Of a stretch of DNA of 64,000 nucleotides, positions 8,222-62,833 are shown in pieces. The DNA is taken from the NCBI GenBank assembly GCA_031213475.1, contig JARUPZ010000004.1:744001-808000 (forward strand). Direction: 5' to 3'. The notes under the pieces are model-generated. The model did not search any database and was not told the DNA's origin. It saw only the letters and a program-made list of their open reading frames with translations. The DNA is from Nereocystis luetkeana (taxonomy: Eukaryota; Sar; Phaeophyceae; Laminariales; Laminariaceae). A program made the translations under genes and the position numbers. Position 1 is the stretch's first letter. Each line of letters opens with the position of its first letter.

Positions 8222-8313
8222 TTAACCCCTTTAGAACCGCAGTCTCGTTTTGGGGACAAACTACTTGAAATTTGAGTGGTTTGTCCCCAAAACGAGACTG
8301 CGGCTCTAAAAGG
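8222..8313. mobile_element. TTAA hairpin MITE (family B), copy 1
   Basis: This is a foldback element. The left arm is TTAACCCCTTTAGAACCGCA then GTCTCGTTTTGGGGACAAAC. The right arm is its near-perfect complement, and the loop is about 20 bases around ACTTGAAATTTGAGTGG. The TTAA start and CCC-type terminus resemble piggyBac-superfamily ends. The right TTAA is degraded in this copy. Confidence 0.75.
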
Positions 8314-8914
8314 GCCGCGAGCAGCACACCGCCAAAAACAGCAAAATAAAAATAGCGCGTAAATTATTGAGGGAGTGGAAATAACGCCAACTCCTTACCT
8401 CGTTGGAGCCAGACAAGCCACACAAAACAGTTGTGAGGTGCAGCTGGCTCAGAGCATGGGAGACGCGCCGAACTCCATCCAGTGGCATCCATTTCATATT
8501 CCACGCGTTGTATTATAACCGTCTGAAAACCTATATTTATTAACCCAATCCCACCTAGCCCAACCCAACCCTGCTAGAGCCGAAACATCTGAAGCCAACC
8601 CACCATCCCTTGGCCCTACGTGCATCATCTTCTGACTACCCAACCCAACTCAACCTAACCCGATGTGTCCCAACCCAACTCGCGACCTCTCGGCCTGATG
8701 ACCTTCTGAAAACCTAACCCAACCCAACACATCCCAATAAAACCCACCAGGTCTCGGCCCTCCACAAAATATACCACAAGGACGAGAGACCAAAATACAT
8801 TGGACAGCGCTTCAACACCTGACCTAACAGAACACAAAACGCTGGATGATGCCGAAAACAGATATCGCGCCCCCTCCACCCCCCGCACCCGTTGAAGATA
8901 GCGCTTGTCTCGTC

Positions 8915-12756: not shown

Positions 12757-15700
12757 TCAAACCCTGCTTTGGAACCTCAGGTGCTGCTGCTGCTGCTGCT
12801 GCTGTTCTTGAGTACGAGCTCCCTTGCCCGCAGAATCAACCTTGGACGGCGCAACAGAAACCTTGTCAGGGGTGGAAGTAGGGGTAGTAGCACCGACACC
12901 CCCCCCCCTTCCCTTCCCGGAGTCCTTCTCCTGAGCGCTAGGGCTCCTAACGCTGGCTACGGCGGGACTGGTGCTGTTACTGCTGCTGGCGAGAACTGTC
13001 CCGTTCACAATGCTGTTGCTATTGCTAGTTGCAGAGAGAGCCTTGCCCTTGCCCTTGCCCTTGCCCGTTTTCGGCGCGGTGGACTCTGCTGCTGCTGCTG
13101 CTGCTGCTGCTGCAGTAGAGCCAAGGTCGAAATCTGCAGCCTTGCCTTTCCCCCCAACCTCGTAGTCGTCTGCCGTCCAGCCCTGCACAGATATGACCGG
13201 TATTAGGCAAAGAATCGTTACATACAGTACGAGTCGTGAATCGGAGCGAAATCGGATGGGAAAATATAGCACACATCCGACAGATCATCTGGACCGTCGA
13301 CTCCGACTTCATGGTCTAGATCTTCGTGGGCACCTGTACCTGTAGTGCAATCATGACCTGTACTGGTGTGGATAGCCCATGTTGCCGGCTGGAAGCCGTA
13401 CCAACTGCTCTAGGGCATGTTTCCCTGGGAGGCTTGCTGCGATAGAAACTCTAGGTCTTACCACGGTTGGATGCATGCGGAAGATTACGGAGCTCCTATG
13501 TCTCTGTATCTGGTCGGATGGCTGTGGCTACGGCTGTAGAAAGGTTTTATTTATTTTGAAATACAAAACATCAAGTCGGATACGTGTGTTGGTTTTTACT
13601 TCGCCGCACAATTACTAACTATTAGTAGCCGTCAAGTCAAGTCCAGCCGACTTACAGCCCACAGCGCTCCACCGAAAAGGGTTTCATACAACAGTGGCAT
13701 ACCCCCTTTCGGGGGCGTATTATATTGCTCGGGAATTGTAGTTAGATTAAGTATGTTCCTGTGCTACTATTACGGGGGACCATAGTTAATAGGACCAAAT
13801 AATGTTAGCAAAAATGGTTAAATATATAGTTTTTCATGTATACCATAGATCCTATCAACTACGGTCCCCCGTAATAATCAGGTACAGTATGAAAAGGGTC
13901 AAGAATCACCTGCTTTTTGAGGGCGAGGAGGTGCTCTTCAGCGTCAATGCCGGCCTTCGCGCGAAACTTCCTAAGCTGCTGCCGACCCTCGTCCTCCACC
14001 TTCACGACAGGACCATGGCAAGAGCAGCATGAGGAAACCAAGCGCGTGCCATGGAGGGAGTAAGAAAGCAGACATCGAAACAATTGTCACTAACGCAAAT
14101 GACACAAACCCGAGAACACGTACAGCGTAACAGCGTGGCAAGAGCATGAGGAAAGCAAGCGCGTGTCACCGAGCCGAGTAAACACATTGAAACATATTGT
14201 TACACGACATACCAGGTACAGGTTTTTCTTAGCGGATACAACCCCTTTAGCACCGCACTTACATACGTGGGGACAAAGAAGGCATTCTACGATAGAGGTT
14301 CCCCCTGATTTTTCTGAGGCGCCTCACTCAAGGAGATCCATACCTCACCCGAAAACTGACCTCAGCAAAAATCAAATTGCATCGCGGCGAATACTCCCAT
14401 GGCCCGAGTCTTACAAAACGTTTTTTTTCGGAATCAAGATTGAAATTCCAACGATTTGGGGTCGAGGAACCCCGTCTTTCGGATACAAAATAGCGGAAAT
14501 GTGCTACTTCTATCGTAGAACGGGTCAAAGCACTCTAATTATAAGTAGTTTGCCCCCAAAACGGGACTGCGGTCTTAAGAGGGTAAAACAGCGGCACGAA
14601 CCCCCAGGTGCCTTGACGATAACCCCGAACAGCCATACCAGTAAACACTTCGACAACGTATAGAAAGCGGGGCGTGTCGCGTTCTTTCTTCAAGACAAAC
14701 TCAAACTAGCATAGTATGTAGTATGTATACATTACCATAGAGTAGTGGTCTGGGGGGAAACTACCGGGAGGTGGGGGTTGCCCTCCCCCCCCGTGTGATT
14801 CTATTACGGGGGGCATAGTAAATAGGACCCAGTAGTGTTGACAAAAATACGTAAATATATAGGTTTTTGTATGCACCGTAGGTCCTACCAGGTATTTACT
14901 ATGGCCCTCCGAAATAGTACTCGAAAAAGGATCCCTCATAACGCTTAAACCCTGACCATGGGGACGTTCCCGGAATATTTCGGGGGGGGGAAACATCGTG
15001 GCGGGAAAACAGCACATGACCCCTCCGCGTTTAAAATATATCAGAGTCCTGACGGGGAATATATTGTAAGTGCAACGGGGACTATAATACAGACTATATA
15101 GACGGGCCGAGTGGCATACGCTAAAAAAATATCGTCCACGAGATAAACTTGATACGCATAAAAAAAACCCGGTAGGATACATACTATTGATAGTCTATAT
15201 ATAGGGATAACAGGCACCCTATTGGGGTGCTATTAACAACTGTAGAATAAAGTGTGGGGGAAAAGGGTGCCAGAATGGTAGTACGCTGACCACAGGATCT
15301 CGACCACGAGGATGAACTCCACGTACAAAAAAAAAGGTGATATAGTATTACGTACTGAAGCATAGTTATAATATATATATATATATAACACGCACTCCAA
15401 TAGGATGCCCATCGTGCGAGTACGGTGGTGCGGCGAACGTAGATGAATTCACTCACGATACAGAGGAAGTAGGTAGTATATACCTGATACCGCTCTCATC
15501 CAAAATATAATAATCGTGTACCAGGTATACATTAATATGAATACCAAGCGGTCCTTAATTTCCGTCCGGAGCGGTATGTAACCGACACTACTACAGTAGT
15601 AGCAGGATGTTGATCGTACACAGGGACAGCAGAGTGGGGAGAAGGAAGGCCATACCAGGGCTCCTACATACCTACGGTAGATACCGATACCCCCGCGGTC

Positions 15701-30206: not shown

Positions 30207-30313
30207 TTAACCCTTTTAGAACTCCAGTCTCGTTTTGGGGACAATTGGGGACAAATGACTTGGAATTTGAGAGCCTTGTCCCCAAAACGGGACTGGAGTT
30301 CTAAAGGGGTTAA
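30207..30313. mobile_element. TTAA hairpin MITE (family B), copy 3
   Basis: The best-preserved ends: TTAACCCTTTTAGAACTCCA on the left and TCTAAAGGGGTTAA on the right, so TTAA flanks both sides. A long perfect hairpin lies between them (GTCTCGTTTTGGGGACAA mirrored). Confidence 0.8.
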
Positions 30314-31445: not shown

Positions 31446-34400
31446 CTACGCTTTAGCCCCTGTCAGCACGATAGGAGCGAAACACGCCCGGAGCCAGACC
31501 CAGGCTAACCAAACGCCCGCGAGAGCGATCCCCCTGGACCACAGCACAGCCAGCTGCGATCCCCGTCTGTATATCCCCGAGGCAATCTCGCCAAAATCGA
31601 TCCAGCTCTCGAGGGTTTTCCCGTCGGCTTCCTTGAGGTACGAGCTGACCTTAGTAACGACCGCCTCGTTGATCGGAACTCCCGCCGCCCCGGCGAGCGA
31701 CTTGAGAGCTTCCGGCTGACCAGCGGAGGGAGCAAGGAGGGGAAGATAGGCTTGGTACGCGGACGGGGGGAGAAGGGCTACGTATAGGGGATGACATGGA
31801 TATTCCCGACAAGCACGGCGGTCTATTCATAGGAGTATAAGCCATCGTGCCGCCTTACGCCGTGTTACACAACGGTCTGTTCGTAGAATCATGCCGCATA
31901 ACGTAGTACCGGTACATCTTCAAAGTACTCGTATTCAGCTACAGTTAGTACTACAGTATAATAGTACGTACGTACAGCACGCAACACCACTTAATGAAAA
32001 CATATTTTGGACAAGTGTTTAATTCTCATTGTGCGAGGTAATTCTGTGAGGCAGGGTGGGTCCTACACAAATTTCAGCATATAAAATGTTCTCAAGTTTC
32101 TTACGAAAGCCGAGCCAAAAGTTCTTGAGAAATACCGAGTACCAATTGAGTGGTGTCGCTATCAAAAATGTTCTTGAAAACTACAATGCCTTGAGCGCTG
32201 TCGCGTATCGCACCGTCGCACCGTCAACATAAGTGCGATATGATATATCAGGTGCATATATACTGTTCCCCCGCTTCCTTTCTGCACATCTGCTTACGTA
32301 CGTACTTCGTACCTGGGCATATATACTGCTGTTCCCCCGCTTCCTTTCTGCACATATGCTTACGTACGTACTTCGTACCTGGGCATATATACTGTTCCCC
32401 CGCTTCCTTTCTTCACATCTGCTTACGTACGTACTTCGTACTTGGTACACGTTTTGGATTTCCTCTGAATGCAGCTGTCGGCAGTGATAGTCACACACTT
32501 AATGCACCGCGAAACCTCTTCGTACAGCAGCTCCCTATGCTGTACCTACCGGCACCGTCTCACTTGCAACATTAATCGCTGCGGTTATTTCGTGCTGTAT
32601 CCATACTTGGCCGTGTTGCTGGCTTGATTGTACCGGCCCATTCTCGCTATGGTTGCTCATAGCGGCTATCCGACGACACCCCCAAGTTCCTACGCGTACC
32701 CATACACAACAGCAGTGTTGTAAATCGCGTTTTGCGATCACGATTTAATCGGGAGTTCTGGTGATCGTGATCGCAAAAAAATGACTCGATGACGATAAAA
32801 TATGTGTTAATCGCGATTTACGATCACGATTATTCAACAAAACTTCCGATACATCTCGACAGAACAGACACCCGTCAAGAATGCTGGCTGCAACCTGCTA
32901 GCCCACACGGTCCGCCGTCTGCAGCAGGATTCACGGTCTACAAGCATCATCGTCGGTGGGAGATGGGCAAGTAGAGGGAAAGGATGCTGTCAGGTTCCTG
33001 GTACGATGAAACGACGTAACCTGTTCCTACAAGTAGTGGTGACTGTCTCAGTTCGTGCATGCACCACGTGAGTCATCGATTGTGTCGTCTCCTTCGCGCA
33101 CTTGTGTGCAAATTGTGTCAGGTGCTAGGGTTGCTGTGAAGAGTGAAACGGTGCCCGTGATAGTAAGCGGTGCAATAATGTGGAGTAGCAACAACCAACC
33201 CAAGCGGCCAACATGACTTGGATCATGGACTCATGGATGGATGCACCTTGCCCCTTGCATAGATTCAACACGAGTCTGGTAGTGGGATCGTGACTGCACG
33301 TGGATCACAGACACCCAAATCATCTCCGGTTTCGTTTCTTACCAACAGCAGTAGCGTGCACCTGTATCCAGAACATCCATTTGACGCAAGCACTGCTTAC
33401 TGGTTCAACTTTGAACTGCGCCGCCGCTCCGGGTGCTTAGCACTCCCGCGACTGCTGCTCTATTTAAGTTGGGTTCCTCTTGAAATGCACAGCTTTGTGC
33501 CCCAATATTGCGATTAATCGCGATATGCGATATACTGTATCTGGTACGTTTCTTTGGTGGTCAAGATCACGGTATATGCTAGAAAATGTGAACGGGTCAC
33601 GCAGAAGTGCTGGGTGCCAGGTTGAGGAGCTGCTTTTTGACCCCTTCAGAACCGCAGTCCCGTTATGGGGACAAACTACTTGAAATTTGTGTGGTTTGTC
33701 CCCAAAACGGGACTGCGGTTCTAAAAGGGTTAACCACCTATCGGAGTTGATATTAGCGATTATTCCAAGGTTGCGCTCTGTAGTGCATACAGAACCATAC
33801 CCGCGGTAGTCACCCGGGTATTACCCTACAAAGAACTTCTCTAAATTCTGTACGGCATTAATGCCAGTACCCGGAATTTCTGTGAGTTCTGTGTGTGCGT
33901 GTGTTCCTTCATATTAAGCCGTTCTTTCTGCCCGTCGACATCCAGCACAACACCAGTGTCCGTGCCAATTCTGTAATCCTATTAGTTTCAATAATAGAGA
34001 GGTAAAAGCTCTCTGGTCACAAAACTAAGACACAGAGACACTACTTGTTACCAGGGTATGCAGTAAGCACAGCAGTAGGCAGCAATGCAATGCCAAGCCA
34101 TCGTACTGGATACGACAGGCACGACATAGACATTCTACAAAAGAAACTAAAACTGCTGTGCTACTGATGTGTACATTCAAACCCGTACCCGGAACTACTG
34201 CAAGTTCTGCACGCCGGTCCCACAATACCCGGAATACGGGTACAACTTTTTTAAAACCTGTCCGGTACTTTTGTGAGATCTGTACGCCCGCGCCACAATA
34301 CCCGGAACTTCTGTGAGTCCGGCAACATTTTCATACACGTGCCCGGCGCTTCCGTATGTTCTGTATGACCTGCATACCCGTATCCGGAACTTCCGTGACT

Positions 34401-37400
34401 TCTGTAAGATTCTGTGGCCCCGTACGATACCCTAAGGGTTGGGGTATACCTTTGAAAAAAATACCCTGGAGCCCGGTACATAAAATATCAGAGATAAATT
34501 CGATGCGAGTCGACGAGGGAAGAAAAGGCTGAAATCTTCTCGCGATAAAAATGAAGGCACGTACCGTAGCGGGAAGGGGGTAGAAGAGCATGCTATGTGA
34601 CCCCGGATCTGAGTTACGAGTTGGAAGGAGAGAGAGAAGAAGATGGGCGAAGATAATGAATGGGATGAGAAAATATATATATATATATATATATACCTGG
34701 TATATAATATCAGAGTTGGAGTGCCAGGTACTGCTATGCATCATGACGTCATGTCTCATCAGTCACACACACCAGTATGAAATCGGAAACAAAGCAACCG
34801 GTAAGACTTATACTACAGTATACTGCTGTTGTAGGAATACTTGCATACCTGGTATGATATATTTGTATATTTGGGTTTCTCAGTCCAAAAGTCTGTGACC
34901 ACAGACTCCGTACCTCACCAAGCAAGATAAAGAACCAGGACACTACTGGGTGCATACTGGGTGCATACATAGGGTAGCTTCGTAATTTCCGTATTTGTTG
35001 GCCTAGGGATACTACTCTGTACCTAAATATAAGGAGCATTTGGATATTAATATGAAATACAATTGATCCTTAAGTTTCGGGACAGAGTGGTAATATTAAG
35101 AGCGGCTCCATTAAAAGCGGCGCAATCAGTCTATCAGTCTATTATTTACAATAGAGCGTTGTCAACGTCATATGTATTATGTCATATGCACACATAGCAT
35201 CTCGAGCCGGCCGAATCACCCTGCGAGTAGAGTGTTTCCTAACCCTGCATCCAAACCGGGCGAATCAACCTATGATATTAATAGAGCAGTAGAGTCTTAC
35301 CAGGTACCAGTATCAAGCAACATCGTCCTACTAATAATATCCTAATACTCGTCGCATTGATCACTGGCCTCAGATACTTTTTTTGCCTCTGTTTTTACTT
35401 GAGGTATTTCTTCCACTCCAGAGTTATTGGAGCCTGTCCTGCGACCACGGACTGCATTGAATTGTGAGTTAATGTGAGAACAACAACAACAACAACAACA
35501 ACTTGACGAGACAGCACTTTCATCCATCGACAGACAGCAACTTTGCCTTGACATGTCCCGACTGACACCAAAACTACTACAGTAGGTTTTAGTGTAAAAC
35601 ACTCGGCTATACACCCTTGACAGCGCACGTTTCGTCGTGCTTGACATATCTCCCGACATGTTTGACAGGCATAGGGTTCGGGTTCGGGCCGGAGGGTCGG
35701 CTTTAGGTTCGCAAAACAAAACCCCCGGAAATATGAATTATCAATGTGTTTCCAGGCCTCCGTCACGCATGGTGAAAATGGTGCCGACAGACATGACGAA
35801 ATGCATGGAACCACACCACCTGTTGGCAGTGGCAGCATTGCGATCGCACTTCCCACTTACCTCCGCCTGCTTGAGGAACGAACACACAAACTGCTGAGTG
35901 CCAGGATTGCGGAGCTGCTTTTTAACCACCTGCCGGAGTAGAAAATTAAAATGAAAGAGTGCAAGTCGAATATCAACCACTCGATCGGTCCCACTCACAG
36001 CGGACGCGTACGTAGACAACAAGCATTTGTAAGAATATAAAAAGTGCAGGGTGTTATAATTTTAGAACGACAGAATACTACCAGTATATAATACCGGGAG
36101 CAGGGGACCCTTATCAGGCTCTTCATAGTTGGGTGCGATCAGGCTTACATCGTTGTAATGAATTAGTCTGTCGGTGTATCCGTCTGTCTGCTGTGTACCA
36201 GGTACTCTGTATTGTAAGAATCTTATTTTCGCATCATTGGTTGCGAAAGCTAGTTAGTTACGCCACCGATTTCCAATAACACGGCGTCTACAGAGGAGGG
36301 TGGCTCGTCGTAAGTCGTCTCAAGTTGGAGGCGTTCCCGTATGATAGTCCTCCTGTGTTTTGGTGCTTTGTTTTCGCGGGATTTCGTTGTTTTTCGTTAT
36401 TTCTACTTCGAACGCACACGGCCCATCTACGGCATGTATCAGGCAGCCTTGCCTCGTGTACCTCTCCACTACAAATAGTAACATATTTTACAGGTCATGT
36501 TAGCCGTCCCACCCGCCGGGGGGAGGGGGGGGGAGGGGGATGATTGAGGCTCGCTTCGCTCGGCCAATTTCACTCAAAGTCGAAGCGAGTCGACTTATCG
36601 AAAGAAAGTAAACGACGAAGCGGCCTTCTCGCCGAAATCGATTTAAAATCAATCGAACCTATCATACGCACCAATTCACGCCCCAACTCTTTGGGGACAT
36701 GATAAAAAAAAAGTCACCGACCAGAATTATTAGTAAACCCGCAAACGATGAGTATGAACCAATATTATTACGGGGGGCCATAGTAAATAGAACCAAATAT
36801 TGTGAGTAAAAATAGGTAAATATATAGGTTTTTGTGTGTACCGCAGGTCCTATTTACTATGGTCCCCCGTGCTGCGAGTATAGGGCAATGGCAACACGAA
36901 GCAGCCATGTCCTGTGGGATAAGGGATGATCAATTCACCCATTTGGAATTCGATTAACTTGAGTATAGTACAGAGCGAAAAAGCCACGACATAAGACGGC
37001 GACCGCAACATCGGCCACTGATTGGTTGGGCCATGCTAAAATTGGGTGTCCGAAATACTGCTCCACGAGCCAAACGAGTCGCACGACACGGGTGCAGGAT
37101 TATCCTGCTCGTACCTACACTTTTTTCCTCCTGCGGATATAAGAGGAACTGCTGCCGCGCTGACGTAACCTAACTCGTGGATGGTGGCTCATCCCAAACT
37201 TGACATTTTTTTGAGCCGCTCTCTCTGGGTTCCAAAAAGACGTATCAAAGCCCGAATACTATTTCAAGCAGTATCCCACAACCTATATACGTAGCTTGTC
37301 CCAAAAAGCAGGGTAACCCTTGAGCTGCGAGCACTATCCAACAGCCAAAAACAGGGTCCGAGCCACAACGCAAGGACGTGCGCGACACGCATCTCAGCAT

Positions 37401-40400: not shown

Positions 40401-43400
40401 ACTATAATTGTGTAGACCATTACACGCAATCTACTACTGCGCACCTTCTCGATCGAGTGCCGTCAGGCGCCCTTCGGCCCACTCTCCAGCCTCCATCAAC
40501 GACACGAGCCCGACTGCCTTGGGGTCTCCCTCCGCAGGACCCGCCGCTCCAGCGCCCTGCTTATTAATAGTAATATTAATAGTATTACGTGTCAACACGG
40601 GCACAAAGGTCAAGGTTAGAAGCGGCGTCCATCTCCATCTCCAACAGTTGGAGGTCAGAAGAGAGGGCAAGCAAAGACCATGCCCCTTGGGAGTAGCTTT
40701 CTGTCGTGGCCGCCCAGAACAGTACTGGCCGCTGAGCACTAACGCCGACACTACGGCTCTGAGTTGGTCTACTACTAAAGGGCTTGATGGCTTCTGTACA
40801 CTACTAGATAGGTAATAGTTGGGTGGCGAAGTTAGCAAAATACGGGCTTAAAATAGTATCTATCGATAAAAAACAGATGTCTAGCCACACACGCGGTGAT
40901 CGTATATAAAAGACGCAGAATTCCGCAAAACATTAGCGCGCAACAAAAAAAAACACCTATCCATAGATTGTTAGCTATAGCCAACTAAATAACTACCAGG
41001 TACACAGCAGTCGGCGACTTCTAGTCAACACAAAAACCACCATAGAAAGGAGAAATACGTCGGCGGCGGATGGTACGTTCCTCAAACAACAACCACACCC
41101 CACATTCCACCAACCTGTGACAGTTTCACGGAGAGATAGGCGTCACGGTACGCCTTCTGCGCCAGTCGAGAACCCGCGACCCCGATCCCCGCCTCCTCCA
41201 CTTGACGCTGTCGTGCCATGGCCCTCCTGTAGGAAGCTTTTTGGCGAAGGGGACGCGCCAGGCCGGGCGTCCTCAGCAGCTGCGAGCAGGTCGCCTCGGC
41301 CCCGCGCAGGTCTCCAGACTGGTTGCCACAGCACGTTCATTGAATGGTGTTGTTGCCGTAGTCACCATCGATATTGTTGGGCGCCCGCATAATATATCGG
41401 GATCATGTGGGGAAGGGAAGGGAAGGGAGGGGGGCGGGGGGGGGGGGGGTACTCATTTGTTGATCCAACATTTGGGCGCTCATTACGATTTTTTAAATAT
41501 ATTACATGCGGCAGCAGAAACTCTTTACTTGTCTCATCCCCTTCCTGTCTCGCCGCCTGTGGGCACCATCTATCTGGGGGTCGTGTACTGATGGCTCATG
41601 GTGTACTCATGTCGTGCGTGACCGTAAAAAAGGGGTCCCTTCACGTCAAACGTCACGTGGAGGGTTTCACAGATCATCGGACGGATCACAGATCCCCACG
41701 TGATGACCTAAAATACTTCAGAGCAGATGCATCCCTGCTCTGTATAATCTGTACGGTCTAGCACATATTGGCAGGTGGGAGCCAAATAATCGTCATGCTT
41801 TAGTGCAATTTCCCGAGTTGGATCTGCACATGTACGTATACTATACATATCATGCATAGCATTTCATCGCGTTAGGTTAGGATGCACAACACAGTAGATG
41901 ATCTAAGTATCTTAGACCATGCGACTAACCTAGGTCTGGGAACTGGCACAAGCATGTACTGGCAGTAGTGATCTACTGCCAGTAGTAATATACTGATTTA
42001 CCCGGCCAGTATATTCGCCAGCAGATTTAGAATACATACGTCCAAGAAACAAGCCATAAAATAGAGCGGAAAACCACCAAAGAGGTTTCAGGTTTTAGGA
42101 AGAGAGAGGAGCTCTCCGCCACCCCTCGTCTGCCGGGCCTATTTACCGCGTTCCTCCCTTCCGTGTTTTTCACGTCTTGTCTTTTTCTTTGCTCTGAGTA
42201 CTCTGATACCGGTTACATTTACTATACGTAGCGTTCCTTCGTTTGTTGGGGTTCCGTTTCCTTTCCTTGTTGTACTTGTGTCTGTCTGTGCTTTCTTGCG
42301 TTTAGTTTTTTTTTCATGGTGAGAGCCTACCCTGTCTGCCTCACGGTTAGCAGCGATGGAGTAACCTCTAAACATTCAATATCAGGTACACGTCAAAACC
42401 GATAACACGGAGATCGCCACATCATCGCTACACTTTGCATATATACATGCATTTTTCTTGATCACGTATTTTCCTGTTTTTGTGTGTCCATGACCTTAAC
42501 CACACCCGGCGAAAGCCGTTTGTGACGGGAAATGAAGCGAACACGCGTGTTTTGTTGGCCTCCAGCGGCACCACCAGCGGGGACGCCTCACCAGACGGGG
42601 AAGGGTGAATTGGCGAGAGCTCGGCCAATAAACTGCAGCAATCCAGCGTACTGATTGATTTTGAGGACAAAATATACCGAGTTAGTCAGCCAGTGCCAAG
42701 CCGTATTAATAGCTGTACCTACAGCAGTATGTACCCGTAGGTATTGGTGTAGCGTTTCCCGATGATCCCTACGATGACGTACGTACGATTTCACAATAAA
42801 GAAATATGATGAGTACAAGCACGCAAAAGCTGGTACAGCTTACGAGTAGTAATGAGGCGCGCGAGCGCGAAGCGCGAGCCTTTTTTTTTCTTGGTTTTCC
42901 AAGGAAAAAAAGCCTCTTCATAACGGCTCGGACACGAGGGTAGGGTGCCTTGTTTTGAGTTTTTCTGTATATGTGTGTGATTCAACATTTTTTGGGGCCA
43001 CATTTGACCACCGCGCTCGACGCACACGGCACCAATTCCAGTTCCGGCGGGCTCTGTGCACGCACACACACAAAATAAACTTTCTCGTGCTGGTTCGTTG
43101 TCAAGTCGTTCACAGTTGGTCGAGCTACGAGGTGCGGCAACGTGTGAATCGAGATGGCCGGGCCATGGTTTAAAAACTCTCAACCGTAAAATATCAAACG
43201 GTTTCTGTTTTCTGGGGTTCTACCAAGCGAAACCCAACTCTGCGAGTACTCGTGGGCAGACTGTGCCTGTCCACAGCAAACGTTCGGCCTGTGTCCCAAG
43301 ACATGCTGCAGGTGGTGTTGCCAGGCCCACCGTCCCTACTACTACTGATAAAGGGACGGAGAAGCAGGAGAAGTTCTGCTGTACATGTGGTACAGCAGTA

Positions 43401-44177
43401 CCAGGTATATAGTAGTGTGGTTGCACCTGTCATAACGGTTTTTGTTTTTCAGCTTTCACCTAAAATTAACGAAACCCACGAGTCAACCGTACGTGTGTGT
43501 ACTCGTGGGCAAAATGTTACTGCCCACAGCAACGTTCGGGCCGTGTTCTAAGACATGCTGCAGGTGGTATCGCCAGCCCCACCCACCCACCGATGATGGG
43601 ACGGATAAGCAGGAGAAGCCCTGCTTGAGAAGATGTCGCATAGCAGTAGTAGTGCACTTGCCGCTACGAGGAGCTCTTCTTGTTGGACATGCCAGGTGGT
43701 AGATTTTTCGTCTCGAAATTATGCCGACTTTCGATGTGGGAAGGAGGAAACATGTATACCTGGTACTCGTACAACGAAAAAACGAGTACGTTCATGTACG
43801 TGTACAAAGGTTGCAAGGGTTAGACCGACAAGCCGAGCGTACAGCGACGCTGACCCTGGCCTCGCGTGTCCTACTGCTACTGCTGCTGCTGCTGTGTTGC
43901 TGCTGGAGAAGCTCTGCTGTTGATGTCGTACGTAAGTATTAATAGTAGTGGTGGCACCTGCTTCGAGAAGCTCTCTCTGTTGGACATCTCACGTTGTAGA
44001 GTTTTCGTCTCCAAATTAGTATGCCGAATTTCGAGGTGGGAAGCAGGAAACATAGGACATAAGTCGAGTACGACTGTGCAAGTACAAAGGGTGTACTCGT
44101 AAAGGTTAGACCGACAAGCCGAGCATATAGCGACGCTGACCCTGGCCTCGCGTGCCCTACTGCATACTGCTGCTGCT

Positions 44178-44210
<33 letters not shown>

Positions 44211-44935
44211 GCTGCCGCCACGTCTGCTGCTGCTGCTGACGACTTTTACTTTCTTAAACAATCGAGCTCAAACATCACGGATACATGTGACCGCGTACGT
44301 ACGTAGATGCTCGTTTTTGTTGGTTCAGCATACTGCATTGTAACATGATACGGTAATCCGTATTCGCCCAGCATGATGCATCGCAGATATGACTCTTAAT
44401 ATTAACACTGTAGGTACTGAGGTCGCGCCTCATTACCACCAATTACTACGAGTATTAATAAAGGAGTAGTACTTCTTATTGGTGGGCCTACACTGCAGTA
44501 TAGGAGCACGTACCTGGTACGTACTGAGTATCTGATCACATACATGAGAACGGCCGGGTATTGACGACAAGAACCACAAGCACTAGCCGTACGTAGCCGT
44601 GGTCTAATACTGGTACCAGGTACCTGGTATCTAACAACGTACCTGTGGTGATGCACCAAGCGAGCAGCCTACACTGTACAGCAGATGGGTCTCCCGATGT
44701 GAAGCTACCTAAAAGAGCTGTGCACATCAGTTCTCTTTGTACGCACCTTGAGCTGAGCAGCTGCCAGCGACAAACGTATCGCGCTCAGCGCCGGCGGTGG
44801 GGCCAGCCCGCCCCCGACAACCTCCAGCAGATCCGCCGCCCGCGCAAACTCCTTCGCGGCCTCGGAGTACTCCCCGGCCCTGTGCAGCGCCGTCGCCTGT
44901 TCCTTGATAAGCTGGGCGTTATCGGCTGGAGACAT
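31446..44935 (-). CDS. TPR protein with C-terminal membrane anchor, 5 exons, complete
   Basis: Exons on the minus strand are 44,935-44,747; 41,318-41,115; 40,556-40,445; 38,938-38,574; 31,715-31,446. All borders are GT..AG, phases are consistent (0, 0, 1, 0) and the total is 1,140 nt, 379 residues. Residues 1-110 form tetratricopeptide repeats (AQLIKEQATALHRAGEYSEA, RLSLAAAQLK joined to SGDLRGAEATCSQLL, KASYRRAMARQRQ). Residues 175-265 are Gly/Met-rich (MFDFLGTAG, MGGMPGLMDMMGAG, GGLMKMIMG), followed by DKKQMLKMAKKMSK joined to PEALKSLAGAAGVPINEA. The last 35 residues contain one hydrophobic segment (GIALAGVWLAWVWL), then a short tail and stop. N-terminal TPR, a Met/Gly-rich linker with an MSPEAL-like motif and a C-tail anchor match the plan of OEP61/TPR7-type chaperone-docking receptors, but only the architecture supports this. 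The start is the first Met before the TPR. An in-frame open stretch continues upstream. Confidence 0.8.
32250..32460 (+). repeat. 72-75-bp tandem repeat, 3 units
   Basis: The unit is GTTCCCCCGCTTCCTTTCTG, CACATCTGCTTACGTACGTA, CTTCGTACCTGGGCATATAT. The middle unit has three extra bases (ACTGCTGTT versus ACTGTT). It lies in intron 4 of the TPR gene. Confidence 0.8.
32700..32835. repeat. AATCGCGAT/CGATCACGATT inverted repeats
   Basis: TTTTGCGATCACGATTTAAT, then GTGATCGTGATCGCAAAA, then TTAATCGCGATTTACGATCA. The arms can pair with each other. It lies in intron 4 of the TPR gene and no element ends were recognised. Confidence 0.45.
33637..33733. mobile_element. TTAA hairpin MITE (family B), copy 4
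   Basis: The left end is decayed (TTGACCCCTTCAGAACCGCA). The right end is intact: GACTGCGGTTCTAAAAGGGT then TAA. Hairpin arms with GTCCCGTTATGGGGACAAAC. It lies in intron 4 of the TPR gene. Confidence 0.75.
33800..34400 (-). repeat. Degenerate TACCCGGAACTTCTGTGAG repeats
   Basis: About eight scattered units such as ACCCGGAACTACTGCAAGTT and ACCCGGAACTTCTGTGAGTC with irregular spacing. An old minisatellite in intron 4 of the TPR gene. Confidence 0.45.
34490..34700 (-). repeat. Interspersed repeat F, copy 2
   Basis: Reverse complement of 1,868-2,090: ATTCGATGCGAGTCGACGAG, AAATCTTCTCGCGATAAAAA, TGACCCCGGATCTGAGTTAC and an (AT)n end. It serves as the empty-site reference for the hairpin at 55,282. 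Confidence 0.7.
36768..36870. mobile_element. TA-flanked MITE (family A), copy 5
   Basis: The left end is TTACGGGGGGCCATAGTAAA after TA. The right arm is GGTCCTATTTACTATGGTCC CCCGT, with the outer few bases lost. It lies in intron 4 of the TPR gene. A more decayed relative is at about 37,840-37,933. Confidence 0.75.
39300..40440 (+). repeat. TCGACGGTTACACTTGATCT minisatellite, interrupted
   Basis: Dozens of diverged 25-60-bp units of the type CTACTACGTCGACGGTTACA C. The array is interrupted at about 39,890-40,180 by unrelated AT-rich sequence containing ATCCAACCCAATAGG. It ends at the 3' border of TPR exon 3 (40,445) and lies in intron 3. Open frames across it are by-products. Confidence 0.7.
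41430..41590 (-). mobile_element. Non-LTR retroelement 3' fragment with poly(C) tail
   Basis: The minus strand encodes CPQAARQEGDE and ends in AACAAATGAGTAC followed by 14 C (41,436-41,449 on the plus strand). Compared with 16,430-16,870 it has an internal deletion shortly before the end. It lies in intron 1 of the TPR gene in the sense orientation, about 115 bases upstream of the exon 2 acceptor. Confidence 0.7.
43230..44165 (+). repeat. Diverged tandem units with micro-insertions
   Basis: Two kinds of unit alternate. One has ACTCGTGGGCA, CAGCAACGTTCGG, AGACATGCTGCAGGTGGT and GACGGA(G/T)AAGCAGGAGAAG (43,240 and 43,500). The other has TGTTGGACATG, GACCGACAAGCCGAGC and GACGCTGACCCTGGCCTCGC (43,680 and 43,978). 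It lies in intron 1 of the TPR gene. It provides a three-way comparison of the same TA site at 43,399, 43,647 and 43,937. Confidence 0.7.
44175..44215 (+). repeat. TTG trinucleotide array
   Basis: About eleven TTG units followed by CTGCTG, in intron 1 of the TPR gene. Related CTG units are at 43,870-43,910. Confidence 0.85.
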
Positions 44936-45785: not shown

Positions 45786-46554
45786 CTGGTACGGGTGCAG
45801 ACAAGGGAGCGGGAGTTGCAGCAGAGCAGTTCATAATTGGTGAGAAATTACGTCCTTGGGTCCTCTCTCTTCCCAGTAAACAGGAACAAGTCGCCGAGCG
45901 AACGGATATTCATGCTCCTGTACGTCAATGAGTACGCGTGCTGTGTGAGTACTGGGGCATATACTCAAGTACTTGCACTTCGGACGCCGTAATACAGCAG
46001 TAGTTGCTACGAACATACTGCACTACCAGGTACACGACTTGTGATAGTATACGGGCACTGCCCGAGTATACTGACACTGTATACCGAGTACCCAATATAC
46101 TCTGATACGACCTACGAGTACGAGTACCAGGTATGCTGCATCCCCTCGTGCCTACCAAGTACCAGGTATACTACGTATACCAGGTATGTACCAAACTGTC
46201 CGGATAGATAAGAACCGCTTTCATTTTTAAAAATAATCAAACGTTGCTTCAATTTCCGGACAGATGATTGGTTCGTGTATCAAGTACCTGGTACCCTGGT
46301 ACTTCTAAACTCGTACGAGTACGAGTGCATGTCACAAGAGGACCGGTATTTGCAGACACCTGTCGAAGAATTTCACAGGTCGCTGCTTCCGGCCCTGCTT
46401 CCGCTGGGCACTCTGATCCTACGCCGACCTGGTCCCACCCTGACCTGAGCCCTCCAAACTGACCCTGGTTACAGCCGGCAGGGCCCCCTGGGATGTTTTT
46501 TTTGTTCCAAAGCTACGTATACCCTGTAAGGGGCGACACGGGTAGCCGCACGTA

Positions 46555-52700: not shown

Positions 52701-55700
52701 CAACGACACGGTGAAACATGCCGCTCATTACGTGAGCTAGACAACCAGGGTACCGCTTTTTTTCGTCTTCTTTTTCTTGGCGGTCGGTCACAGCTGGTTG
52801 TCGAGTTAGATCGTTTGTGCGAGGTGAACAACCTTTCCTCCGCACAAGTGGGAATGATCGTATCCCGTAGTGTTTATGGTAGGGTACCCAAGAGGCAGTT
52901 ACAGAGTAATCCCATTGCTGTCTCTGGAAAGGCCTACACCAGAAATTAAATCAACTCATTGAAGCTGTCATCCATATGCAAGTCCGCCCCACAAGCGATT
53001 CTTAGTAGGATGCAGCTCACCCTTCATGCGACTCGCCAGACACCTCATGGCGCTTCGCACTTGGTGCAAGCAATGTCTGCCTTGTCGGTGAAAACCCGAC
53101 GTGCTCCGTCCCGGCATTGTAGGGATGCGAGGGTCTATGGTCTTACGACTACGGCCATGCATGAGATCGAGTACATCTCTCCTATCGAGTACACCCGCCC
53201 CCCCCCCTGCTCCCTTCCTTACCTCTCTACATCATATGTTTTCCGTTTAGACGGGTGTTGATGCCCACAGTGCACACTCTCGACTGCTCCCCTTCTGAAA
53301 AACGTTTGCTGCGTCCCAAGATTTATTCATGTGTGTGTGTCTTTTTTTAAGGAAACGCTCATGGTGCACGTCGGACATATGATGGTCTATCTATATATCT
53401 ATCTACAGTAGATTATCTAGTCCCTCACCTGCCTTTGTGGGAGGTTGTGCAGAATTTGCCTTATAGGGCAGATCCAACCCGGGCAACTTGTGCTACCGTA
53501 TAGATCATGCAGATTACACTGCTCCCACCCGGCAACATGAGCTAGATCATACAGATCATACAGATCTATCTGCGCTGAAAAATCTAGACCATCACTTTCG
53601 AACGGATTATCTGTGAGGTGTGTGCATGCTTTGATGTCGAAGGGGCATGACTATACCCTCCCTCCCCCCTACCCCCACATCTAATTCGCGTTCATTTTGC
53701 GTGCTGATTCCCGCAGTTGACGCTTTCGACTCGTCCTCTTCTCAAACACGCCTTTTTATATACCAGGTATAGTATACTTCGTGCTAGTTTTGTTAACTTT
53801 GCAGGCGTTTTTTTTCCCGGGAGACGCCCATGGTTTGCTATTGAGGGGGTTTGACGTTATCACCCCCGCCCCCCCGCCCTTGCCTCTCCCTCAAGAGAAG
53901 AATATATACCAGGTATATATGTTGAGAAAGCGTGGGCTTTATTTACCCCCCCCCTCGCTCGCTCGCTCCCTCCCTCCCTCCCTCCCTCCCTCCCTCCCAC
54001 CCTCCCTGTCTGCCTGCCGGGCTGCCTGGCTGCCTTGGTGTTTGGTGTGACAGACCTGGCTTGAGACAATTCCTAGCACAGGCTGCGACGATGTTTGAGA
54101 TGACCATCTACACTGCCGGGACTTCGCAGTACGCAGATGCGGTGAGATAAGCTGGAAGCGTCGAAAGGAAGAGGCAGGAAGGGGGGGAGCAAGGAGAGGG
54201 AAGAAAGGGCGCGCGCCCGGGGGGGGGGGGGGTACTGATATCATGCATGGCCCTATTAATAGTCGTGTGACCATCGGGGGGGGAGGGGGGCAAGGGAGAG
54301 CGCGGGGGGCGGGGAGGGAGAGGGACGGAGGGGAAGGGACAAAAGGGGGAGGGAGGGGAATGAAAGAGGAAGGGGGGGAGGGGGAGAATTTGTGGTAGGC
54401 GTGTTGACGGTGGGGAGTCAAGGTTTGCTAAAGGTTAGGGCTAAGTATTGCACTAGCTAAATAGTTCTATTGCGACGAAGGAAAGCAACCACGCAACTCT
54501 TCTCGTGCTGGGTGCCGTCCTACTGCCCTGCTTAGGTGGCAGGCGTGCTGGACCCTGACCGAAGCCTCTTCCAGGGCCGCCACTTCTCAACGTGCTACAC
54601 CCCCGACCTCGGCAGAAATACCAAGGTGCAGGAAACCCTTGAGGCATGCCTCTACAGTGCGGTCGGTCCACTGACGTGTCCTACGATAGGGGCACATATA
54701 ATAGCACTTTTTGCCCAAAATATTTATGACTGAGGGGGGGGGGTGTTATCTTGTTACACTATATTCAATATAAAACTATCACACTAGGGTGATAAGATAA
54801 CCCCCCCCCCCCCCCGGACGTATTTCGAGGCTGATTTTCTCGACAACGGAGAGGGTGTAAAACAAACGCCCTGCGATGCGTCTATATACGAGAAACATCT
54901 CGACGAGATCTTCTGCGCAAGGCCGCCATCTTCATTATTTTGTGCCTCCCTCGGGGCCTTCACACACCTTTAGAACCGCAGTCCCGTTTTGGGGACAAAC
55001 TACTTGAAATTTGACTGGTTTGTCCCCAAAACGGGACTGCGGTTCTAAAGGGGTTAAGGCAATGGTTCGGTTTGGACACAATCGGCTCTGAAATTCGTCC
55101 AAGTGCGGGTGTCATTTTACTGCAAGTGTCGCGCGGTACCCAACACTGGTTGTTTTCTGATTGTTTTTATGATCGACGCGGAGAGCGGCTTTGTAGTGCG
55201 GGTAGGCGTTATTCGATGCGAGTCCACGAGGGAAGAAAGCGGGCCGAAGTGTTTTCGCGATAAAAATGGAAGGCACGAACCTTAACCCTTTTAGAGCCAC
55301 AGTTCCGTTTTAGGGACAAACCACTCAAATTTCAAGTAGTTTGTCCCCAAAACGGGACTGCGGTTCTAAAGGGGCTATAATGGGGAGGGAGGGGGGAGAA
55401 GAGTCTGCTTTATCACCCCGGATCTGAGTTACTTACGAGTATTAATGGGAAGGAAAGAGAAGAGAAGGACAAAGGCAATGAATGGGATAGGGGAAAAATA
55501 CGAGAGAAAAATGCTTGATAGGGCTGCTCATCGGCGTTAGACCTATGCCAATGGAAACGCGAAGTTGAAAAGTTTTTTTTCAAATATATGGCTTTAAAAA
55601 AACAGCCGAAAAATTTCTCGTACCGCCGCTGTGGGGAAAAAAGAGAAAAATGTTTGATTTTTTCTTTTTTTTCCCCCAACGGCTGCAGGCGGCGCAATTT

Positions 55701-60891: not shown

Positions 60892-60998
60892 TTACGGGGG
60901 GCCATAGTAAATAGGACCTGCGGTATATAGACAAAAACCTATATATTTCGCTATTTTTACTATCCATATTTGGTCCTATTTACTTTGGTCCCCCGTAA
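60892..60998. mobile_element. TA-flanked MITE (family A), copy 6 (best preserved)
   Basis: TTACGGGGGGCCATAGTAAA TAGGACC ... GGTCCTATTTACTTTGGTCC CCCGTAA, 107 bp, flanked by TA (60,890-91 and 60,999-61,000). It lies downstream of exon 7 of the FCP1-like gene, probably in an intron. Confidence 0.85.
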
Positions 60999-61158: not shown

Positions 61159-62833
61159 ATGTCCCCTCCGCCTCTTTGGCGCATTCGTTGTTTTAGGGAA
61201 AACTCTTATTCATTTCTCCGTTCACTTGACCCCCCCCCCCTCCCCCCACCCTCCTTGGGTAAGATAATCCGAGGTAGGAAAGACGCGGGACTAACATGTA
61301 CCAGGTACCAGGGTACTGTTTATTTTCTAAATGTACAGAAGGCCTACGACACAGTATGGAGAAATGGATTGTGGAAAAAAGTATGGAAAATAGTAATCAG
61401 AGGAAAGATGTGGAGAATGATGAAGAAGATGACGGAATGTGCGAGAAGTGCTGTGATGCTGGACGGGGAAATATCGAAGTGTGTTGGTATTTTACAAGGA
61501 CTTGCACAGGGTTGTACGTTGTCACCCAACCTATTCAAGATATATGTTAACGCCCTAATAGTAGCAGTCGAAGCAGCAAGGCAGGGAGTCACGGTAGGGG
61601 AAGATAAGGTGTCGGGATTGATGTTTGCGGATGACTTCGTGGGGGTATCAGAAACACGCGAAATATTGCAGAAACAAATAGAGAAGGCGCTAGAATACAC
61701 TAAGAAATGGAGGGTGACGGCGAACGTCATGAAATGCGCAGTAGTTGTTTGTAACGAAGATAAGGTGAACCCGTTAAAAATCAGTTGGAAGTGGGGGAAA
61801 AGATGAATTGCCGATCGTAGACCAGTATATATACCTTGGCGTAGAGGTCTCAAAAGACTGGTCTTGGGATACACATATAGCAAAAGTAATAGGGAAGGGT
61901 AAAGCACACGTAGGCAAGATGGATGCGATCCTAACAGACTCGCACCTTGACACCAGGATTAAGAGATGTATCCTGATGAATGTGATAGTACCAAAGCTAG
62001 GATAGGCAGGAGAAGTATGAGAAGGGAACTCTAAACTCGTAAAACAGTTGGAAACAGTACAGATGACAACAGCTGAAAAAATCCAAAGATGCTCAAGTAA
62101 GACCAGTAATACAGTATTAAGAGCAGAACTGGGAATACACCCACTATTAATAATAGATATATGAAAAGTTGAAATGGCGATGTAAAGTAAGGAACAGCCA
62201 AAAAAGAGGCTGTCAGCCATAGTTGATAGAGCTGTATGGGAGAAAAAGTAGCAAGAGCGCGAGCTGGAATATGGTGGGATAGCGTAGTTGAGAAAGATAT
62301 AGGGGGAAACCAAGAAGAGGTGATGTCCACCCGGAAGTTTGGGAAGTACAAGGCAGAAGTAGAAGAAAGGATAGAAAGAAGGGAAAGGCTAGCGCTACGA
62401 AACAAGGTGGAATCGGGAAAACATCTAGAGATCTACGGGGGATTGAGGGAAGGAATAGGAATGAAAACGTATTTGCACGATCCAATGGACTTGGCGAAAA
62501 CGCTGAAACTGCGCTTTCGTGTAGGTGACCTGGACCTGCCAGAAAGAACAGGTATACCAATAGCCAGGAGGAGGAGGAAATAGATGCACAGATGTGCCCG
62601 TGTGGCAAAGCAATACAGAGTACAACCCAAATAGTAGGAGAATGTGAATTGTACAAGGAGGAACGGCATGTCAGAAGAAGAGATGAGGGAAATAGACGAA
62701 TGTGACATGGGGTACACTAGATAGCAGCAAGAAAACGATCGTTATCCTCGAAGACACATGGTGGCCACAGGCGGCGAAACAGGAAGGGGATAAGATTAGC
62801 GAAAAGTTTCTATTAAAATTAATATGTAATACA
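61159..62833 (+). pseudogene. Non-LTR retrotransposon reverse transcriptase, broken
   Basis: 61,330-61,806 encodes the palm of a LINE-type reverse transcriptase: NVQKAYDTVWRNGLWKK, GLAQGCTLSPNLFKIYVNAL and the catalytic MFADDFVGVSE, then a TKKWRVTANVMKC thumb. The frame stops at 61,806. It resumes one frame over from about 61,808 (YIYLGVEVSKDWSWDTHIAK) to a stop at 62,005 and again, broken, to RVGDLDLPERTG and WWPQAAKQEGDK near 62,790. The 5' part, including any endonuclease, is missing. At about 62,835 it is interrupted by element E, and its 3' end resumes at about 63,945. It lies downstream of FCP1 exon 7 in the sense orientation. It cannot be active as it stands. Confidence 0.9.

Follow-up and report, generated by a model that had tools for sequence, protein, structure and literature searches.

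Short words enclosed by duplicated TA dinucleotides, among them CCWGG, TTAA, CGAG and CWG, are strongly enriched in the genome of Nereocystis luetkeana, and we consider it probable (roughly 83%) that they are excision footprints of several cut-and-paste transposon families of the Tc1/mariner (IS630) or pogo type. An element of this kind would insert at a TA and double it; on excision a few bases of its ends would remain on each flank as 3' overhangs, and ligation of both flanks by the cell would leave a joint persisting as TA-word-TA. The analysis was centered on a stretch of 64,000 nucleotides (the window) within a 465-Mb genome comprising 1,987 contigs. The window reads as eukaryotic, with 109 frames of at least 100 codons in 64 kb, the longest having 572.

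The original prediction concerned a tandem repeat in which a single TA was said to hold CCAGG, nothing, or TTAA in three successive units. The features of this region are as follows.

43246..44193 (+): block of diverged tandem repeats, its units spaced by about 252 and 297 bp; the comparison of the words was made here
43399..43407 (no strand): TACCAGGTA word of repeat unit 1, a putative CCWGG scar with an additional TATA after it
43647..43648 (no strand): bare TA within GCAGTAGTAG, the empty state, in repeat unit 2
43757..43765 (no strand): TACCTGGTA, the second CCWGG word of this tandem block
43937..43944 (no strand): TATTAATA word, a putative TTAA scar, in repeat unit 3
44094..44101 (no strand): TACTCGTA word, a putative CGAG scar
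44614..44629 (no strand): two CCWGG words in opposite orientation with one TA in common

All three readings were found where they had been claimed. Copy 1 carries the word together with the extra TATA and so differs by 11 nt from copy 2, which means that it does not represent a clean single word, and in copy 3 the placement chosen by the aligner is ambiguous because the site sits in a TAG-rich stretch. The block is kin to repeats at three other loci (L003, L004 and L026, of which L003 and L004 overlap in the genome). As the related units there read CAGCAGTCAGTAGTAGTGG, CAGCAGCCAGTAGTAGTGG or GCAGTAGTTGTGG and carry neither word, both words look like gains; unit 1 would then hold the scar of an element with CCA ends and unit 3 that of an element with TTA ends, unit 2 being the untouched site. 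At 44094..44101 the copies in L003 and L026 are without the CGAG word and read CA, not TA.

The words are far more abundant than expected. In the window TACCWGGTA occurs 50 times against 0.59 expected and TATTAATA 23 times against 0.76 expected, and none of 100 shuffles reached either count. Genome-wide, TACCWGGTA was found 182,395 times compared with 1,744 for the pattern read backwards (mirrored control), TATTAATA 93,112 times compared with 10,689, and TACGAGTA 82,203 times compared with 9,641, counts that include copies amplified within larger repeats and therefore give an upper bound on the number of events. The density of CCWGG words is 0.78 per kb in the window versus 0.27 per kb in the rest. 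A further count covered 254 kb, made up of the window and 19 of 20 unselected 10-kb stretches, with simple repeats masked and one satellite locus (L012) dropped, nearly the whole 10 kb of which is a satellite-like tandem array. In this set the ratio of TA-word-TA to the backwards string was 97:0 for CCWGG, 66:0 for CGAG, 39:4 for TTAA and 89:18 for CWG. Also enriched were CTCC (39:2), CTGC (39:10), ATAG (32:4) and several six-letter words such as CAGCAG (23:0), an enrichment that the footprint reading does not account for and that counts against it; none of these four named words appeared among the listed TA-bounded indels between repeat copies.

CCWGG words frequently touch one another. Genome-wide there are 15,917 touching pairs, of which 9,539 are direct and 6,378 inverted. 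The surplus of direct pairs points to some duplication; an inverted pair requires either independent events or an altered middle base. Touching pairs also occur in 9 stretches of a viral collection and in at least 118 stretches of prokaryote genomes, which means that the word by itself cannot serve as a marker. At 32254-32445 of the window, a tandem array of three 63-66 bp units has a consensus holding TACGTACGTAC and a TACCTGG half-word, and a broken CCWGG word seems to have been amplified along with this array. Among ten open reading frames of the window the sole profile match was a reverse transcriptase fragment at 61159-61806 (+; RVT_1, E 1.1e-16), and an Rfam search of the sequence gave no match. 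Dinucleotide autocorrelation was too blunt a measure.

Self-alignment of the window and 27 loci (L001-L028 without L007, 285 kb) yielded 845 pairs of at least 60 nt, with 543 distinct isolated indels of 3-30 nt, 70 of which can be placed with a duplicated TA. Because AC (92), AG (87), CA (86) and AA (74) are all commoner than TA (70) among the dinucleotides duplicated over all indels, the signal comes from specific words and not from TA-duplicating indels in general. CCWGG plus TA accounts for 13 of the 45 seven-nt indels, and TTAA plus TA was seen 4 times, CGAG plus TA 3 times and CWG plus TA twice. Counted by place, the numbers are 10 of 35 seven-nt indel places for CCWGG plus TA (two of the ten are neighbouring 12-nt bins and maybe one place), and 4, 3 and 1 for the other three. 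Seven of the ten CCWGG places fall within L003-L005, which had been chosen because they contain the doubled word, and unselected sequence (the window and L021) gives three.

Each word was also set against the corresponding reading in its paralogs, wherever 8 or more of 12 bases agreed in each of the two flanks. For CCWGG, 103 comparisons gave the same word in 40, a bare TA in 16 and other sequence in the remainder; bare TA stands opposite 6 of 39 sites, two of the six coinciding in the genome owing to the overlap of L003 with L004. TTAA faced a bare TA in 10 of 19 comparisons (4 of 8 sites), and CGAG in 4 of 63, with the same word in 30 (by site 2 of 30, both tandem copies). For CWG no bare TA was seen opposite in any of 82 comparisons or 36 sites. 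These comparisons establish CCWGG, TTAA and CGAG, but not CWG, as insertions, and for these three words the predicted position of the extra bases between duplicated TAs holds in aligned repeat copies.

The direction of change can be read from one family of 21 aligned copies. The 801-bp query (L026:2200-3000) belongs to a repeat that is kin to the tandem block; of 1,557 candidates 40 were scored, the search returned 46 matches, and 20 copies were taken. At one site CCWGG is present in L035 alone, and 15 of the 21 copies read AACCGTTATGATTT; at two further sites the single carriers are L036 and L043, most other copies having a bare TA at the site of L036. A fourth CCWGG site has the word in 5 copies and one shared bare-TA reading in 10, and at a fifth the word is carried by 7 copies. 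TTAA occurs in L026 alone at a site where 12 of 21 copies share one bare-TA reading, and CGAG in L026 alone where most others show a bare TA; a second CGAG site, with 16 of 21 carriers, is uninformative on direction. CCWGG, TTAA and CGAG therefore occur as gains at bare TAs. The alignment of multi-copy repeats that had been proposed as a check, run here on 285 kb of the 465 Mb and on this family, thus returned TA-bounded extra bases and single-carrier gains.

A likely parent was found for TTAA. Long insertions with empty sites in the self-alignments brought up a 105-bp inverted-repeat element, MITE A, with ends TTACGGGGGACCATAGTTAATAGGACC / TTACGG at a doubled TA, and insertions opposite bare-TA empty sites were seen at L026:4995-5101 (against L003) and L014:6768-6872 (against L011). 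The window has three copies.

13770..13874 (no strand): MITE A copy with ends TTACGGGGGACC, TA adjoining both ends
36768..36872 (no strand): MITE A copy, TA adjoining the left end, right end degenerate (GCACGGGGG after ...GCA)
60892..60998 (no strand): MITE A copy, both ends adjoining TA

The target preferences of word and element agree. At positions -1, -2 and -3 the TTAA words have C (.53), A (.55) and T (.53), and 19 MITE A ends have C in 11, A in 14 and T in 9; TAC before the TA is common to both, and the TTAA words favor C-TA-G. Under the flank model of the TTAA words the 19 ends gave a log-likelihood ratio of +14.4, which none of 20,000 random TA sets reached, compared with -18.2, -2.4 and +5.9 under the CCWGG, CGAG and CWG models; the test covered the MITE A ends.

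That larger element, about 4.28 kb long with ends TTACGGAGGCTCATAATTAGTAGG, has a head identical to that of MITE A (TTACGG). An IS630 family model gave 24 weak genome matches, several of them in nearly identical copies, and copies of this element are among them. The frame of the element spans 493-515 codons from stop to stop and matches DDE_3 (PF13358; E 2.7e-12, 47.2 bits against a cut-off of 28.6). One copy (C10) has TA on both sides, and in another (C30) one base lies between each end and the nearest TA. Four copies (L114-L117, corresponding to C10, C13, C2 and C30) are 99.3-100% identical over about 3.1 kb, so movement was probably recent. The spacing between the second D and the E, with motifs picked by eye, is 123 residues in L114 and 113 in L118, a second DDE_3 gene for which neither a near-identical second copy nor ends were found. 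In Tc1 the corresponding distance is about 34 residues. Because of this difference we call the putative transposase of the TTACGG element IS630/Tc1-like and do not file it as a DD34E member. Whole-genome profile searches with PF13358 and PF01359 gave no match, yet PF13358 was found on direct scan, and the zero for PF01359 says little, as this profile matched no control. From its ends, TA duplication and targets, the TTACGG family, comprising MITE A and the 4.28-kb element, is the likely parent of the TTAA word.

For CCWGG, the commonest word, no parent has been proven. The words prefer R-TA-Y. One candidate family, MITE C, begins with CCA and has ends CCACTCYGTCCGG / CCACTCYGTCCGGAAAYNTAAGGAC, containing CTCYGTCC, of which 1,028 were found within 2 mismatches and none mirrored; one copy lies in the window.

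46191..46271 (no strand, ends approximate): diverged MITE C copy, of the candidate CCWGG-parent family, between CCWGG words

TA adjoins 36 of 56 left and 18 of 36 right ends of MITE C (54 of 92 in total), and under the CCWGG flank model these flanks score -1.5, no better than any TA. MITE C thus fits by three bases, its target flanks give no support, and it can be regarded as a candidate parent only. Neither TA-flanked inverted repeats nor shared extensions after TACCWGG led to an element whose ends could convincingly be read as CCWGG. In L016 a CCAGGGATC pair flanked by TA was rejected as one of many pairs on a single long inverted repeat, and the remaining CCWGG pairs were words or were weak and stood alone. 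A search for 10-mers that recur after TA behind varied upstream sequence gave 14 rows, compared with 3-7 for five control dinucleotides; several of the rows belong to parts of MITE A, of MITE B (described below) or of repeats, and none was a convincing CCWGG element. The predicted footprint status is accordingly supported for TTAA by an element that duplicates TA and agrees with the word in its ends and target preference, and for CCAGG at 43399 we infer it. Should CCWGG be a footprint too, the many scars set against few candidate parents would make it testable how excision persists without loss of the element.

The other words have candidates of varying quality. The excision footprint of Minos is TA-CGAG-TA; no Minos-like element was found here. 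The pogo-type DDE_1 profile gave 28 matches, of which five regions were read. At L051:1654-4261 lies a pogo-type element of 2,608 bp with a DDE_1 gene inside, TA on both sides and perfect 26-nt ends CAGTGGGGGGCCCTATATAGTGCAGG (beginning CAGTGGGGGG, CAG), and the same end occurs once at L049:570. Judged by its CAG ends, this element could be the maker of the CWG word; the base before the TA is G at all three CAG ends seen, and CWG words prefer C. At L053:503-5893, inverted repeats of about 1.2 kb starting TA-CCGTAATCATGCGG surround two DDE_1 genes, and these repeats are a possible source of the rarer TA-CCGG-TA word. In L050 and L052 no convincing element ends were found.

If the words are footprints, a simple rule might account for their sequences. 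We infer that overhangs of up to 3 nt, pairing as well as possible, would fix each joint: a TTA end would give TTAA through a 2-nt match, a CCA end would give CC-W-GG through one A:A mispair, with A or T as the middle base in consequence, a CGA end would give CGAG or CTCG, and a CAG end CWG. When symmetric joints were predicted from all overlaps of the 64 end triplets and counted in the 254 kb, the three most enriched were CCWGG (from CCA/CCT, 1-nt A:A or T:T mispair), TTAA (from TTA, 2-nt match) and CGAG/CTCG (from CGA/CTC, 2 nt), followed by CGTACG (7 sites) and CWG (from CAG or CTG, 3 nt; z 8.4); the test detects symmetric joints only, and CTCC, CTGC and ATAG fall outside it. The joint rule is post hoc, and TTAA follows equally from filled-in 2-nt overhangs. 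Points in its favor are that TTA ends and a CAG-ended pogo-type element occur here and that the ends of Minos read CGAG (PMC3680223). Hsmar1 counts against it. This element begins with TTA, an end for which the rule would give TTAA. Its listed footprint is T(T/A)A (PMC3878927). The same source gives 2-3 nt 3' overhangs for Tc1/mariner cuts. Tentatively, and at rather less than even odds, the first three bases of a transposon might fix its joint, in which case the vocabulary of TA words would list every TA family that has departed, extinct ones included. On this scar-code reading CCWGG would represent up to about 180,000 departures of a nearly vanished family, joined through a single A:A mispair.

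Several other origins of the words can be weighed against this evidence. An enzyme might place ultra-short insertions at TA in their own right, without any parent element, as the 182,395 CCWGG copies with no proven parent and the frequent touching of words would allow; we consider this unlikely, given that a likely parent whose ends and targets agree with the word was found for TTAA, that the words equal the joints of transposon ends, and that we know of no enzyme inserting 4-5 bp. Selection for regulatory or structural palindromes is less probable still. Highly iterated palindromes do exist in bacteria, and CCWGG and TTAA are both palindromic and strongly enriched, but the single-carrier gains in diverged repeat copies, flank preferences that vary by word and the non-palindromic CGAG speak against such a role.

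The least probable source, in our estimate, is tandem slippage or microsatellite-like expansion around TA: gains are also seen at sites with no adjoining word copy, and slippage of direct repeats cannot yield inverted pairs, even though direct pairs are in excess among touching CCWGG words and 15 of 25 TA-bounded indels between copies at least 85% identical are also tandem copies. A different question arises for TTAA, as the window also contains MITE B, a nearly palindromic element of about 90 bp. Its ends, CCCTTTTAGAAC, mostly follow TTAA, and it resembles a piggyBac-type MITE with TTAA duplication. Its copies in the window are the following.

8226-8314: MITE B copy
30211-30309: MITE B copy
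54965-55053: MITE B copy
55286-55374: MITE B copy
57868: MITE B copy

Elements of this type, rather than the TTACGG family, might have left the TTAA words; MITE B copies are numerous in the window, and another, at L026:7312-7406, occupies a place where L013 has TATTAATA. This origin is nevertheless very improbable, about on a par with selected palindromes: TTAA plus TA is gained at bare TAs, the words favor C-TA-G, and excision of piggyBac leaves the target in its original state with no bases added (PMC3878927). The reading in L013 is consistent with MITE B having taken an existing scar as its target. Excision of TA-duplicating elements remains our preferred reading for the words.

Descriptions of footprints usually cover only a handful; the identical ones here suffice to measure target preference, joint type and the relative number of departures per family, and the scars of one genome let one ask how the host joins 3' overhangs. 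The words are also frequent enough to fool motif searches, in which TACCWGGTA, for instance, might be called a regulatory palindrome. A literature search found no paper containing the TA-bounded word itself and no reports of such words at genome scale, with most subscription journals outside its coverage.

The arrangement resembles known systems in several respects. For Sleeping Beauty, Frog Prince and Hsmar1 PMC3878927 describes a TA target and a few end bases between two TAs, as here, and the Sleeping Beauty footprint given there, C(A/T)GTA, equals the CWG word; a review gives it as TAG(T/A)CTA (PMC2874221), which we counted against the footprint reading. The CGAG word equals the first four bases of the Minos end, which appears as TA-CGAGCCCC in a primer in PMC3680223. 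Stowaway MITEs and plant mariner-like elements likewise show TA duplication and excision footprints (PMC4423477, PMC4561436), and the CTCYGTCC within the MITE C ends is a further resemblance. Stowaway ends read CTCCCTC in Table 1 of PMC4423477, compared with CCACTC at the start of MITE C and TTACGG at that of MITE A, which places MITE C outside the Stowaway end definition. The length of Tc1/mariner footprints is quoted in one paper as 2-4 bp (PMC7913693), whereas CCWGG has 5 nt, and footprints of differing sizes have been reported as non-canonical (PMC3770610). The Tc1/mariner footprints in PMC3878927 come from vectors, whereas here exact words occur in 10^4-10^5 copies in a single genome together with the 5-nt CCWGG joint. 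Footprints of this kind are therefore known, while their number, their exactness and the 5-nt CCWGG joint are unusual, the scale and the joint being new to us.
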